From the NCBI GenBank assembly GCA_003452695.1, contig DMNP01000111.1, forward strand, positions 1 through 7,512: a stretch of 7,512 bases of DNA, written 5' to 3'. Shown in pieces: positions 1 through 4,685 of this stretch (position 1 is its first letter; every line of letters begins with the position of its first letter). Made by a program: the position numbers and the translations under genes. The notes beneath the pieces were generated by a model. It had not been told where the DNA came from. It saw only the letters and a program-made list of their open reading frames with translations, and searched no databases. The DNA comes from Eggerthellaceae bacterium. Its GTDB lineage: Bacteria > Actinomycetota > Coriobacteriia > Coriobacteriales > Eggerthellaceae.

Positions 1-1750
1 CGCGCATGGGCTCGTTCTGCTCGTACACCTCCACGCGTCCGCCAGCGGCCTTCAGCTTGGCCGCAACATCGTATGCCGCGTCCAGATGACGGTCGGCGAT
101 GGGCAAGATGACAGCCTGTACGGGCGACAGCCATAACGGCAAGGCCCCGGCGTAATGCTCGATGAGGATTCCCAGGAAACGCTCGATCGACCCGAACAGC
201 GCGCGGTGCAGCATGAACGGCCGCGCCTCGGCGTTGTCGGCCGTGCGGTACGTAATGCCGAAGCGCTCGGGCAGGTTGAAATCCACCTGCACCGTCGAGC
301 ACTGCCAGGTGCGACCGATGGCGTCCTTCACCTTGATGTCGATCTTCGGGCCATAGAAGGCGCCGTCGCCGGCGTTTATCTCGTATTTCAGGCCACGACG
401 CGTGATGGCTTCCTTCAGCGCGCTTTCCGCGAACTCCCACATGGCATCCGTGCCAATGGACTTCTCGGGGCGCGTGGATATCTCGGCCTCGTATTCGAAG
501 CCGAACTGCGTCATTATGTAGTCGGCCATGTCCAAGATGTCCACGACCTCGTCGACCACCTGGTCCTCGCGGCAGAAGATGTGCGCGTCGTCCTGCGTGA
601 ACCCGCGGGCGCGCATAAGGCCGTGCACCACGCCGCTCATCTCGTGGCGATACACCGTGCCGAACTCGAAGAAACGCACCGGCAGGTCGCGGTAGGAATG
701 CACGTCGTTGCGGTACAGCATGACGTGCCCCGGGCAGTTCATGGGCTTCACGCCGTATTCGCTGTAGCGCGGCTGCTCGTCGGTGCCTTCGTTTATGTTG
801 AAGAAGTACATGTTCTCGTGATAGAAGTCGTAGTGCCCGCTCGTCTTCCACACGTCGGCCTTGTAGATATGCGGGGTGATGACTTCCTCGTAGCCGCGAC
901 GGTACAGCTCTTTGCGCAGCCATTCCTGCATCGTGCGGATGATGCGGCCGCCCTTGGGAAGGTACAGCGGCAGGCCCACGCCCGCCAGCTCGTCCATCAT
1001 GAACACGCCCAGTTCGCGGCCAAGCTTGCGATGGTCGCGTTTCTCGGCCTCGGCCAGGTTGTGCAGGTGCTGGTCCAGTTCCTTCTGCTTGAAGAACGCC
1101 GTGCCGTACAGGCGCTGCAGCTGGTCGCGCTCGGCATCGCCGCGCCAATAGGCGCCGGCGATCTTCTGCAGCTTGAACGCGGGAACCTTGCCCGTGTTCG
1201 GCAGGTGCGGGCCGCGGCACAAGTCCGTGAAACTGCCGATGGTATAGGTGGTGATAACTTCGTCTTCGGGCATTTCGCTTATCAGCTCGACCTTGAAGGG
1301 CTGGTCGGCAAACATCTTCAGCGCTTCATCGCGCGAGACGGCCTTGCGCTCGAACGGCTCGGCGGCCTCCACGATTTCGGCCATGCGCGCCTCGATTGCC
1401 TCGAAATCGTCCGTGGAAAGCGTGCGGTCCAGCTTCACGTCGTAGTAGAAGCCGTTTTCGATGGCCGGCCCCACGCCGAACTTCACGTCGCCGTACAGAT
1501 CCACGAGCGCAGCTGCCATGACGTGCGCAGTTGAATGCCGCAGCAGCTCGAGCGCCTCTGGGCTCTTGTTGGTGAGGATGGATACCCGGTCGCCGTCGGC
1601 CACTTCGCGGGCAAGGTCGACCATCTTGCCGTTCACGACGCCGCCGAGCGCCGCCTTGGCAAGTCCCGCGCCAATCGATGCGGCCACATCGGCCACGGTG
1701 GCGCCTTCCTGCAGTTCCTTCTGGGAACCGTCGGGCAGTACAATGTTCAT
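1..1750 (-). CDS. thrS: Threonyl-tRNA synthetase, 3' end cut by window edge
   Basis: Charges tRNA-Thr with threonine in the cytoplasm. The reverse strand translates from ATG at 1750-1748 (MNIVLPDGSQ...) into 583 codons without a stop. E. coli ThrRS is 642 residues, so about 50-60 C-terminal residues are missing. Visible domains: TGS at about 1-60; editing domain with HSTAH (H72, H76) plus C178 and H182 in LCRGPH; class II catalytic core from about 240, with C339 (PMNCPGH), H390 (DDAH) and H515 (FMLHRALFG) at the places of the three zinc ligands; motif 2 around FGTVYRHEMSG (363-373); motif 3 around 517-540; start of the anticodon-binding domain from about 545 (VQAVILPIADRHLDAAYDV). All key residues are intact. 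The start is supported by a purine-rich Shine-Dalgarno stretch (complement of 1756-1769, with AAGGAG and AGGAAG). The gene is divergent from ybaB and has a long structured leader that probably regulates it. Confidence 0.97.
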   Translation of the reverse strand, partial: MNIVLPDGSQKELQEGATVADVAASIGAGLAKAALGGVVNGKMVDLAREVADGDRVSILTNKSPEALELLRHSTAHVMAAALVDLYGDVKFGVGPAIENGFYYDVKLDRTLSTDDFEAIEARMAEIVEAAEPFERKAVSRDEALKMFADQPFKVELISEMPEDEVITTYTIGSFTDLCRGPHLPNTGKVPAFKLQKIAGAYWRGDAERDQLQRLYGTAFFKQKELDQHLHNLAEAEKRDHRKLGRELGVFMMDELAGVGLPLYLPKGGRIIRTMQEWLRKELYRRGYEEVITPHIYKADVWKTSGHYDFYHENMYFFNINEGTDEQPRYSEYGVKPMNCPGHVMLYRNDVHSYRDLPVRFFEFGTVYRHEMSGVVHGLMRARGFTQDDAHIFCREDQVVDEVVDILDMADYIMTQFGFEYEAEISTRPEKSIGTDAMWEFAESALKEAITRRGLKYEINAGDGAFYGPKIDIKVKDAIGRTWQCSTVQVDFNLPERFGITYRTADNAEARPFMLHRALFGSIERFLGILIEHYAGALPLWLSPVQAVILPIADRHLDAAYDVAAKLKAAGGRVEVYEQNEPMR

Positions 1751-1778
1751 CCGTGCTTCCTTTCTCCTTGTTCGGCCG

Positions 1779-1795
1779 GGCGCACACAAAGCGCC
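1779..1795 (-). promoter_or_regulatory. tRNA-Thr anticodon-arm mimic in thrS leader, UGU copy
   Basis: Read on the minus strand, GGCGC (1795-1791), loop UUUGUGU (1790-1784) and GCGCC (1783-1779) form a perfect 5-bp stem with a 7-nt loop, the geometry of a tRNA anticodon arm. Loop positions 32-38 read U-U-U-G-U-G-U. This gives U33, threonine anticodon UGU at 34-36 and a purine at 37. It lies 28 nt from the thrS start codon, directly before the Shine-Dalgarno region. By analogy with the E. coli thrS operator, ThrRS bound here could block ribosome loading. The structure is seen in the sequence; ThrRS binding is inferred. Confidence 0.7.
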
Positions 1796-1807
1796 TGCTA
1801 TAAGCCG

Positions 1808-1824
1808 GGTGCATACCAAGCACC
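1808..1824 (-). promoter_or_regulatory. tRNA-Thr anticodon-arm mimic in thrS leader, GGU copy
   Basis: On the minus strand GGUGC (1824-1820), loop UUGGUAU (1819-1813) and GCACC (1812-1808) form a 5-bp stem and a 7-nt loop. Positions 32-38 read U-U-G-G-U-A-U, which has U33, the threonine anticodon GGU at 34-36 and A37, matching a tRNA-Thr(GGU) anticodon loop at these positions. Compared with the neighbouring UGU hairpin, the middle stem pair changes from U-A to C-G. This compensatory change keeps the stem and argues for selection on RNA structure. A 12-nt linker (1807-1796) separates the two hairpins. Confidence 0.7.
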
Positions 1825-1828
1825 TGCT

Positions 1829-1987
1829 CTGGATGGTTGTGGCGGCACATCTGCCCTTCAGGCCCCTCCCGCGCTCGCACACGGCGCGAAGGCCGCTTAG
1901 CTCGCGCGATCGGGCCCTTCAGGGCAGCTGCACTCGCCACAACCATCCAGCCGAAGGCGGTCGTGGCGGCACATCTGCCCTTCAGGG
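1829..1987 (-). repeat. Three mutually complementary segments in the thrS leader
   Basis: In transcript order (minus strand) the segments are C (1987-1958), B (1950-1911) and A (1866-1829). A and C share an exact 24-nt direct repeat (plus-strand 1839-1862 and 1963-1986). B contains a perfect 16-nt inverted match to A (1935-1950 against 1829-1844), and the pairing continues imperfectly to about 1911 and 1866. B also pairs with C over its CGCCAC, CAG, AGGG and CCCT blocks. So B can fold either with C across a short GCCUUCGGC-containing loop, or with A across a loop of about 45 nt, directly before the anticodon mimics. GCCCTTCAGG occurs three times (1853, 1914 and 1978). It could be a leader switch, or a dispersed repetitive element that has landed in the leader. 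No canonical T-box sequence is visible. Confidence 0.7.
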
Positions 1988-2013: not shown

Positions 2014-2019
2014 ATTATA
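2014..2019 (-). promoter_or_regulatory. Putative -10 box of the thrS promoter
   Basis: The complement of 2014-2019 reads TATAAT, a perfect sigma70-type -10 hexamer. At the usual spacing only a poor -35 match is seen. Transcription would start near 2007, giving a leader of about 257 nt that includes all the repeat segments and both anticodon-like hairpins. Confidence 0.6.
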
Positions 2020-3522: not shown

Positions 3523-3820
3523 CACCTGCACGAGCGGGTGCACGCCGCTGTGGCTTGGCAATCTGCACGTTGCGTTCCCGAGGGGTGTGCAGCGGGCAGT
3601 TTGCGCGGGCTGAACAAGGGAACCGGGTGAGAATCCCGGGCGGGGACCGACACTGTATGCGTGGGCCCGCATCCGTCGGCTGAAGGGCCGGTCATTGGGG
3701 GTGGCTCCCCGAGAAGGCAGGATGTGGGCGGCAGACAGCGCGAGGAAGCGGTGCATCCAACCAGGTTGGCTGCATCGTTTCACGGCAGTCTGCGACTACG
3801 CGAGCCAGGAGACCTACAGG
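3523..3820 (+). ncRNA. Cobalamin (AdoCbl-type) riboswitch aptamer
   Basis: The conserved blocks of the Cobalamin riboswitch family occur in order: 5' GGGTGC box (3536-3541); GGGAA (3618-3622); GGTG with GAATCC (3626-3636); ACTGT (3652-3656); the B12-box equivalent GTCATTGG (3691-3698; consensus CCACTGG); GAGAAGG (3711-3717); and the closing GAGCCAGGAGACCT (3802-3815). A short P1 (CCTG 3525-3528 with CAGG 3817-3820) is possible. Between GAGAAGG and the closing box sits an unusually long arm: GCAGAC (3731-3736) pairs with GTCTGC (3788-3793), and inside it 3749-3755 pairs with 3771-3777, followed by a CCAAC/GTTGG helix. The RNA lies between a promoter and an intrinsic terminator. Ligand class is inferred from the full set of peripheral elements. 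Confidence 0.88.
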
Positions 3821-3839: not shown

Positions 3840-3910
3840 TGTCGGCCAAAAGGACAGCCGACACTGCGGAGGTGGATTGTGTCGCCTCCCCAGTGTCGGC
3901 TGTCCTTTTT
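3840..3910 (+). terminator. Rho-independent terminator, riboswitch expression platform
   Basis: A 19-bp perfect stem, 3848-3866 with 3891-3909, closes a 24-nt loop that contains an additional GGAGG/CCTCC helix. The stem ends in a T-run (3906-3910). A competing antiterminator hairpin is visible: TGTCGGC (3840-3846) pairs with GCCGACA (3857-3863), which occupies the left terminator arm. An aptamer segment (GTCGGCTG, 3675-3682) is also complementary to 3855-3862. Cobalamin binding would be expected to favour termination and switch the downstream operon off. Confidence 0.9.
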
Positions 3911-4001
3911 GTAGATGGTGCAGCGCGTTTACGTACGGGGAACGGACGCTGGCCGGGCGCAACGAGCGTCTGGCGCAGGGCCGGGGAAAGGCGAGGGCGT
4001 G

Positions 4002-4685
4002 ATGAGCGGACGAGAACTGCGCAGAAGCGCAGCAAACGATATCGACAACGGGAACCGTGGCCTACCGGCGCGAAGCGGTGCAGGCGCGAGCGCGCGAGCG
4101 GTGCAGGCGGTAACGCTCCGGGTTGCACGGGCTTCGCGGGCCGCGCTCGCCCTGGCTGCCGCGCTTGTGCTGGCATGCGCGTTGGCGTTTGCCGGCTGCG
4201 GATCGGACGCGCTTACCACCACGAAGCAGTCTGACAGCGCCAGCGCCTCGGCCAGTGCGTCGTCCAGCGCCGCTGCATCCGGTGAATCCGCCAACGGCGT
4301 GCGCTCGGTCGCGCCCGATGCCGTTCCGGGCGAAAACGAGGTGCTCGTCGTGTTCGACACCTCCAAGGCGCATGCCTACAACGACAAGTTCCCCGAGAGC
4401 GTCGGGGCGTTCATGGTCCCGTTCGAAGAGGGCCTGACGGCGTTCGACACGCTTCAGGCGACCGGCGTGGACTACGCGCTGCGCGGCAAGGACTACGTGA
4501 AGTCCATCGCCGGCATCGAGGAGAAGGTCTGCGGCCCCAACAGCGGCTGGCTGTACCTGGTTGACGGCGCCCAGTCCTCCAAGAACGCGATGGACTACAA
4601 GCTGAGCGGTGGCCAGACGCTGGTTTGGGGATATACGGTTGAAGAAGGCGATTTCGGGCAGACAATGCCCAAGGACGCGGCGTAG
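4002..4685 (+). CDS. DUF4430 (transcobalamin beta-domain-like) lipoprotein
   Basis: Predicted 227-residue exported lipoprotein, likely a surface cobalamin/corrinoid-binding or accessory protein. It has a long basic N-terminus, a hydrophobic segment (48-62) and lipobox LAFAGC with C66 as lipidation site; Phe at -3 is slightly atypical. A Ser/Ala-rich linker (79-98) leads to a C-terminal DUF4430 domain (about 112-213) with VLVVFDTSKA, a helix around GLTAFDTLQATG, and the diagnostic block SGWLYLVDG (181-189)...LVWGYT. DUF4430 resembles the beta domain of human intrinsic factor and transcobalamin. The ATG at 4002 is preceded by GGGGAAAGGCGAGGG. Starts at 3915 (directly after the terminator) or GTG 3999 are possible. 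First gene after the B12 riboswitch, 49 nt before the next gene with no clear terminator. Family assignment is firm; cobalamin binding is inferred from family and riboswitch. Confidence 0.85.
   Translation: MSGRELRRSAANDIDNGNRGLPARSGAGASARAVQAVTLRVARASRAALALAAALVLACALAFAGCGSDALTTTKQSDSASASASASSSAAASGESANGVRSVAPDAVPGENEVLVVFDTSKAHAYNDKFPESVGAFMVPFEEGLTAFDTLQATGVDYALRGKDYVKSIAGIEEKVCGPNSGWLYLVDGAQSSKNAMDYKLSGGQTLVWGYTVEEGDFGQTMPKDAA

Follow-up and report, generated by a model that had tools for sequence, protein, structure and literature searches.

The window, i.e. the whole stretch of 7,512 nucleotides that was analysed, carries thrS, the gene of threonyl-tRNA synthetase (ThrRS), on its minus strand (1..1750). 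The gene starts with an ATG at 1750-1748 and runs beyond the window edge. Its assignment is certain, with a product that scores 658 bits against TIGR00418 (cut-off 383.65) and has matches to ThrRS chains of known structure, among them 1qf6, and to the sequence group holding 1kog. Divergently from thrS, ybaB/ebfC (2093) and recR (2417) are encoded on the plus strand. The 342-nt gap upstream of thrS harbors, in order towards the gene, a TATAAT motif, a long hairpin, two 29-nt units, and a Shine-Dalgarno (SD) region. TATAAT, read from the sequence at 2014..2019 (minus strand), is a candidate -10 element of the thrS promoter and is also seen by eye upstream of the arms described below in leaders L001-L005; a promoter scan of the window returned no full sigma-70 site, and it is TATAAT by which the promoter is placed. 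As a -10 element at this position, it would put the arms within the transcript. The long hairpin (1831..1948, minus strand) was predicted by folding and spans 118 nt with 13 perfect basal pairs; a partial copy of its right half is visible by eye at ~1954-1987. Among eight genomes searched for this hairpin, that of L003 holds a counterpart 90% identical over most of its length, that of L004 one 81% identical over 52 nt, and that of L029 two matches of ~30 nt; the other five gave no match. A mobile repeat is not supported by this search.

The two units (1828-1771) lie just before the SD-like region AAGGAGAAAGGAA (1757..1769, minus strand, read from the sequence), which ends 6 nt before the start codon. 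On the minus strand, unit 1828-1800 reads AGCA GGTGC TTGGTAT GCACC CGGCTTAT and unit 1799-1771 reads AGCA GGCGC TTTGTGT GCGCC CGGCCGAA. In the RNA, arm 1 with its flanks (1804..1828, minus strand) consists of AGCA, the stem strand GGUGC (1824-1820), the loop UUGGUAU (1819-1813), the stem strand GCACC (1812-1808), and CGGC, and arm 2 (1775..1799, minus strand) of AGCA, GGCGC (1795-1791), UUUGUGU (1790-1784), GCGCC (1783-1779), and CGGC. In tRNA numbering, both loops have U33, followed by a threonine anticodon (GGU in arm 1, UGU in arm 2) and A or G at position 37; arms 1 and 2 differ in their third stem pair, U-A and C-G, respectively. The sequence-only reading had described all of this, i.e. 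tandem 29-nt units with a 5-bp stem and a 7-nt loop, U33, threonine triplets, a purine at 37, a compensatory pair change, and a place just before the SD of thrS, and its coordinates and letters proved exact.

It had also held that such a match is hard to explain by chance, which was borne out. When an arm was defined by five Watson-Crick pairs, a 7-nt loop, a pyrimidine at 33, and GU at 35-36, dinucleotide-preserving shuffles of the 342-nt intergenic region contained at least one arm in 39/5000 cases and two arms in 0/5000, vs two in the real sequence; relatives keep the arm as well. Both arms are called on sequence, helix probability, and homologues. Within the 95 nt before the start codon, helix probabilities reach 0.97 for arm 1 and 0.88 for arm 2, and both arms form in a 286-nt fold of the leader. 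Folded alone, the 96-nt arm stretch is not unusually stable (z -0.71), with arm 2 broken in the minimum-energy fold, and in the 95-nt folds of the leaders with flank-defined GU arms 15/75 arms have a helix probability <0.5, several of them near 0.

Stem covariation, fixed G35-U36, and tRNA-like flanks

Relatives of ThrRS were found at 38 loci in one scan, and the upstream regions of 33 of them were taken. A search of 296 Coriobacteriia genomes detected ThrRS in 289, and 110 further upstream regions were chosen among the matches listed, with a bias to window-like ThrRS. Together with the window this yielded 144 upstream regions, or 130 once near-identical ones were removed. The last 130 nt of these 130 thrS upstreams were searched for GCA N17 CGG, a pattern built on the flanks in which the loop is not a criterion. 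The search returned 81 matches in 67 loci, and 75 of them carry G35-U36, each with 5/5 stem pairs; many arm-bearing leaders are related, so that arm counts do not represent independent events. Four of the 81 matches have one of five pairs and are due to chance. The remaining two, L138 (G290) and L139 (G146), keep the flanks (GCA...CGGC) ~40 nt before the thrS start and form 4 and 5 stem pairs, respectively, with UGC at 34-36 and hence GC at 35-36; the ThrRS of both genomes is 55% identical to that of the window. Leaders with intact stems and non-threonine triplets, which the sequence-only reading had named as evidence against itself, thus do occur, namely these two, with GU in the other 75 arms.

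Base counts in the 76 arms with five pairs (the 75 with GU plus L139) are 72 U and 4 G for position 34; 61 U, 14 C, and 1 A for position 33; and 38 G, 31 A, 6 C, and 1 U for position 37. The fixed loop bases are therefore 35-36, and position 37 varies. ThrRS reads these two bases of tRNA-Thr as identity elements. The proposed coverage of both threonine anticodon families applies to the window with its GGU and UGU; with U at position 34 in 72/76 arms, it is not general. In the 62 leaders with flank-defined GU arms, the last arm begins 34-48 nt ahead of the start codon.

The stems covary, as the sequence-only reading had expected from related leaders. In a set of 39 arms (34 distinct rows), changes on both sides occur at all five pairs, and 100% of the cells pair. 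The covariation score is 0.845, vs 0.222 for shuffled and <=0.181 for slid pairings; since the 39 arms were preselected for pairing and GU, the slid pairings are the fairer control. The flank-only search, which retained G35-U36, is free of such choice.

The likeness to tRNA continues into the flanks. A tRNA finder was run on 18 of 30 loci, and the tRNA-Thr genes it printed carry GCA at positions 24-26 and GG at 45-46, including UGU, CGU, and GGU genes of the arm-bearing genomes G001, G003, G036, and G213. The arm flanks GCA and CGG match these positions. GCA and GG are common at the same positions of other tRNAs, and the tRNA-Thr genes of G104 and G185 share them though the Atopobiaceae-type arm of these genomes is without such flanks; the flank match is thus a likeness to tRNA and not specific to threonine.

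Pairing also extends outwards. Of 68 distinct arms, all 68 have a C25-G46 pair and 66 pair G24 with the next base, both pairs being nearly invariant. The next two positions outward pair in 53 and 44 of 68 arms, vs 37.3 and 22.9 in shuffles, none of which was as high (0/2000); at the two positions further out, 24 and 22 arms pair, a level also reached by 388 and 626 of the 2000 shuffles and thus no better than these. When pairings are slid, the covarying outer positions reach up to 49 (first) and 33 (second), the value of 49 arising because the slid partner is an invariant G. Judging from these patterns, the arm appears to sit on a short outer helix, separated from it by an A/C-G internal loop at the site equivalent to tRNA positions 26/44-45, and the simple 5-bp arms of the sequence-only reading give way to this composite form. 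The tRNA-like flanks and the covarying outer helix suggest that the mimic extends below the anticodon stem.

Number of arms, arm types, and link to thrS

Leaders with flank-defined GU arms contain two arms in 13/62 cases and one in 49/62; the pair noted for the window is real and not the rule. The argument that two arms suit the ThrRS dimer is consequently not general. Eleven of the 13 two-arm leaders space their arms by 29 nt, L012 by 35 nt, and L013 by 32 nt. L002 and L008, in which the first arm is by eye shortened to 4 pairs and has GU, were left out of the two-arm count. A second type of hairpin accompanies many single arms. Selected by its loop alone (A[ACG]UCAA[ACG], 50-90 nt before the start codon), it was found in 22/130 leaders, namely in 22/49 single-arm, 0/13 two-arm, and 0/68 other leaders. 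Each of these hairpins has a stem in which at least 7 of the 8 positions are paired and compensatory changes are numerous, and the 7-nt loop is closed by C-A (9), U-G (8), A-C (3), or C-G (2). This loop is not a threonine anticodon and begins 26-29 nt before the arm and 63-76 nt before the thrS start (L055 and 21 others). As a guess by analogy, the UCAA hairpin may be the counterpart of domain 4 of the Escherichia coli thrS operator.

The 64 leaders lacking the flank form were scanned for strict hairpins. At -20 to -80, GU is present in 18/37 hairpins (15 leaders), vs 9/73 further upstream; at least three of the 18 (one each in L020, L104, and L110) are unlike the main arm of their leader. No strict GU hairpin was found at -20 to -80 in 49/64 of these leaders, so that the element is not found throughout the class. 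Among the remainder of the 18 are arms with CUCGG, CCCGG, or CACGG stems (L011, L014, L016, L019, L020, L085) and an Atopobiaceae type, CGGCC[AUYGURN]GGCCG. An arm with one bulged U is visible by eye in L086 and in L104. The pattern CGGCCATYGTRAGGCCG occurs in 7/10 genomes and lies at thrS in all seven; one extra Atopobiaceae-type match in G104 falls inside a long reading frame and was taken as chance, not as a second regulated gene. Further upstream than the usual arms, at -87, L135 (G101) has a 6-bp hairpin with the loop UCGGUAG (GGU at 34-36), which may be either chance or a displaced arm.

A covariance model, R1, was built from 29 arms. In eight genomes, its best matches lie at thrS in the five arm-bearing ones (E 4.5e-8 to 3.4e-7), where nothing besides thrS fell below E 0.1. 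In the 296 Coriobacteriia genomes (E<=0.01), 70 matches were obtained, 56 of them at thrS in 50 genomes, in line with the outcome foreseen for such a search. One further match (G202) is located at a contig end, with thrS cut off on another contig, and the 13 found elsewhere than at thrS score <=28.7 bits, whereas those at thrS score >=28.9 bits except for the bulged arm of L086 in G124 (26.6). A dispersed repeat is ruled out, as the strong R1 matches are thrS sites, and a plasmid search gave no match. The 130 nt before the guessed starts of hisS and valS in ten genomes contain GU in 0/6 and 0/10 hairpins, respectively, and no cognate triplet was seen by eye in these hairpins; this argues against a general habit of synthetase leaders. 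One genome also has, at L271 (G134 C1:2238547-2239815), a divergent additional hisS-like reading frame that contains an internal TAG.

In a 35-row ThrRS tree, the window groups with other arm-bearing rows in a clade of 11 (98/98), and the CNCGG and GCA arm types nest in one six-row clade (100/97); separate origins of these two types are therefore not supported. Mapping every arm label on the tree takes 7 changes, where 3 would be the minimum. A distant set comprised 24 usable leaders of 30 loci in 100 genomes of the phylum, with ThrRS identities <=57% and a guessed start codon for five matches that begin 6-18 residues into the protein. GU was present in 0/15 hairpins of these 24 leaders, which hints at an origin separate from that of the E. 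coli operator, a case weakened by the fact that the class of these genomes is not given. At one of 19 distant loci searched against Rfam (L233, 3255-3487, minus strand), a T-box (RF00230, 94 bits) lies just upstream of thrS, and the phylum thus likely has at least two ways of controlling this gene.

A putative ThrRS-binding operator and its alternatives

The arms recall the thrS operator of E. coli, a textbook case of tRNA-mimicking mRNA and, to our knowledge, the one well-documented bacterial mRNA in which tRNA imitation serves to bind the synthetase. In the E. coli K-12 leader, GUGAUCU[UUCGUGU]GGGUCAC is located at -42 and accompanied by an outer helix and a 1x3 internal loop; the SD comes next. 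E. coli ThrRS is described to bind domains II and IV of this leader via their likeness to the tRNA-Thr anticodon loop and to block 30S binding, and exchange of the anticodon-like triplet for that of tRNA-Met brings the leader under the control of MetRS (PMC11088916, PMC9976931, PMC3858243, PMC7373986). Both systems concern the same gene and place a mimic with a threonine anticodon next to the SD; the operator loop UUCGUGU and the window loop UUUGUGU are both 7 nt long with U33 and NGU, and both upper stems rest on an asymmetric internal loop and an outer helix. The window even shares the presence of two arms (domains 2 and 4 in E. coli). The layouts differ: the arms here are nearly identical repeats placed at a 29-nt interval and divided by a short spacer, vs domains 2 and 4 joined by the linker domain 3 in E. 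coli, and the four-domain arrangement does not recur in the Coriobacteriia leaders. Their upper stem has 5 bp instead of 7, the GCA/CGG flanks set them apart, and many leaders, which belong to another phylum, possess a single arm that is often joined by a UCAA-loop hairpin. Anticodon mimics are also reported for the yeast AspRS and HisRS mRNAs (PMC6542539, PMC9976931); these likewise place an anticodon-arm mimic in the mRNA of the synthetase itself, but they are eukaryotic, involve other synthetases, and differ in mechanistic details.

It is very probable that the tandem hairpins copy the anticodon arm of tRNA-Thr and that ThrRS binds them and represses its own translation. At ThrRS levels exceeding those of free tRNA-Thr, the dimer would take up the arms with its anticodon-binding domains, in two-arm leaders presumably one per subunit, and the body of the bound enzyme would block entry of the 30S subunit at the adjacent SD. 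tRNA-Thr would in turn compete the repressor off the leader. In one-arm leaders, the second hairpin may, speculatively, hold the other ThrRS subunit. A broader proposal, tentative and in our estimate somewhat more doubtful than plausible, is that Coriobacteriia reinvented an operator of the E. coli kind in modular form, combining an SD-adjacent mimic that copies tRNA-Thr beyond its anticodon arm (A26, the 44-46 corner, and a D-stem-like helix) with a dimer-bridging partner at fixed spacing, either a second arm or a ThrRS-bound UCAA hairpin.

Other explanations have to be weighed against ThrRS autorepression. The stem halves are also inverted repeats at the DNA level, and the stem is fairly conserved among 29 aligned GCA-type arms, as might be expected of dyads recognized by a transcription factor controlling thrS. 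We consider this very unlikely, given that the fixed bases G35 and U36 are located in an asymmetric loop, the stem bases change in pairs, the arm stays beside the SD at a near-constant distance to the start codon, and the strong model matches lie at thrS. An RNA-level role without ThrRS as the repressor is improbable too, if slightly less so. The arms could be recognized by another reader of tRNA-Thr anticodon arms, e.g. the machinery modifying position 37 to t6A, or act as stability/ribosome-standby hairpins; the ThrRS link is drawn from sequence, and thrS leaders hold further conserved hairpins. However, the t6A machinery needs A at position 37, which is not kept as such in the 76 arms, a plain structural role does not require G35-U36, and it is ThrRS that reads these two bases and whose own gene follows the element.

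Control of thrS by leader RNA linked to tRNA-Thr is also the principle of the T-box (RF00230), described for Firmicutes thrS (PMC2494555) and represented among the distant loci by L233. A T-box binds tRNA via a codon, whereas the mRNA considered here imitates the tRNA and carries the anticodon, not a threonine specifier codon, in its loop. T-box matches were absent both from the window (E<=5) and from L009 (E<=2), and this explanation was rejected, its remaining probability being close to nil. Rfam gave no match at the window arms, in L009, or in the E. coli thrS leader itself, and none at E<=0.5 in 20 further leaders (L055 with a GU arm, L138, L139, and 17 without a GU arm).

An E. coli-like operator of ThrRS autorepression, in another phylum and with a new layout, is the best reading of these sequences. 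No title on a thrS operator in Coriobacteriia was among the matches listed for the open-licence literature, and a term search of an Actinobacteria RNA survey (PMC1262725) did not find thrS named. New here are the tRNA-like flanks with the outer helix, the UCAA hairpin of one-arm leaders, and the likeness to E. coli with a hinted separate origin. If true, a counterpart kept in dozens of genomes of another phylum would open to comparison what has been one isolated case. The number of arms, the stems, and anticodon base 34 vary naturally among these leaders, and the tRNA features needed by ThrRS, as well as the way its dimer handles one or two arms, could then be worked out from this variation. 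The element is a candidate for a new Rfam family.

A different leader RNA lies elsewhere in the window: a cobalamin riboswitch (RF00174, 41.4 bits) at 3617-3815 on the plus strand. It is followed by a long near-perfect hairpin with a T run (3848-3910, by eye), located upstream of the gene of a DUF4430 protein (3915-4685).
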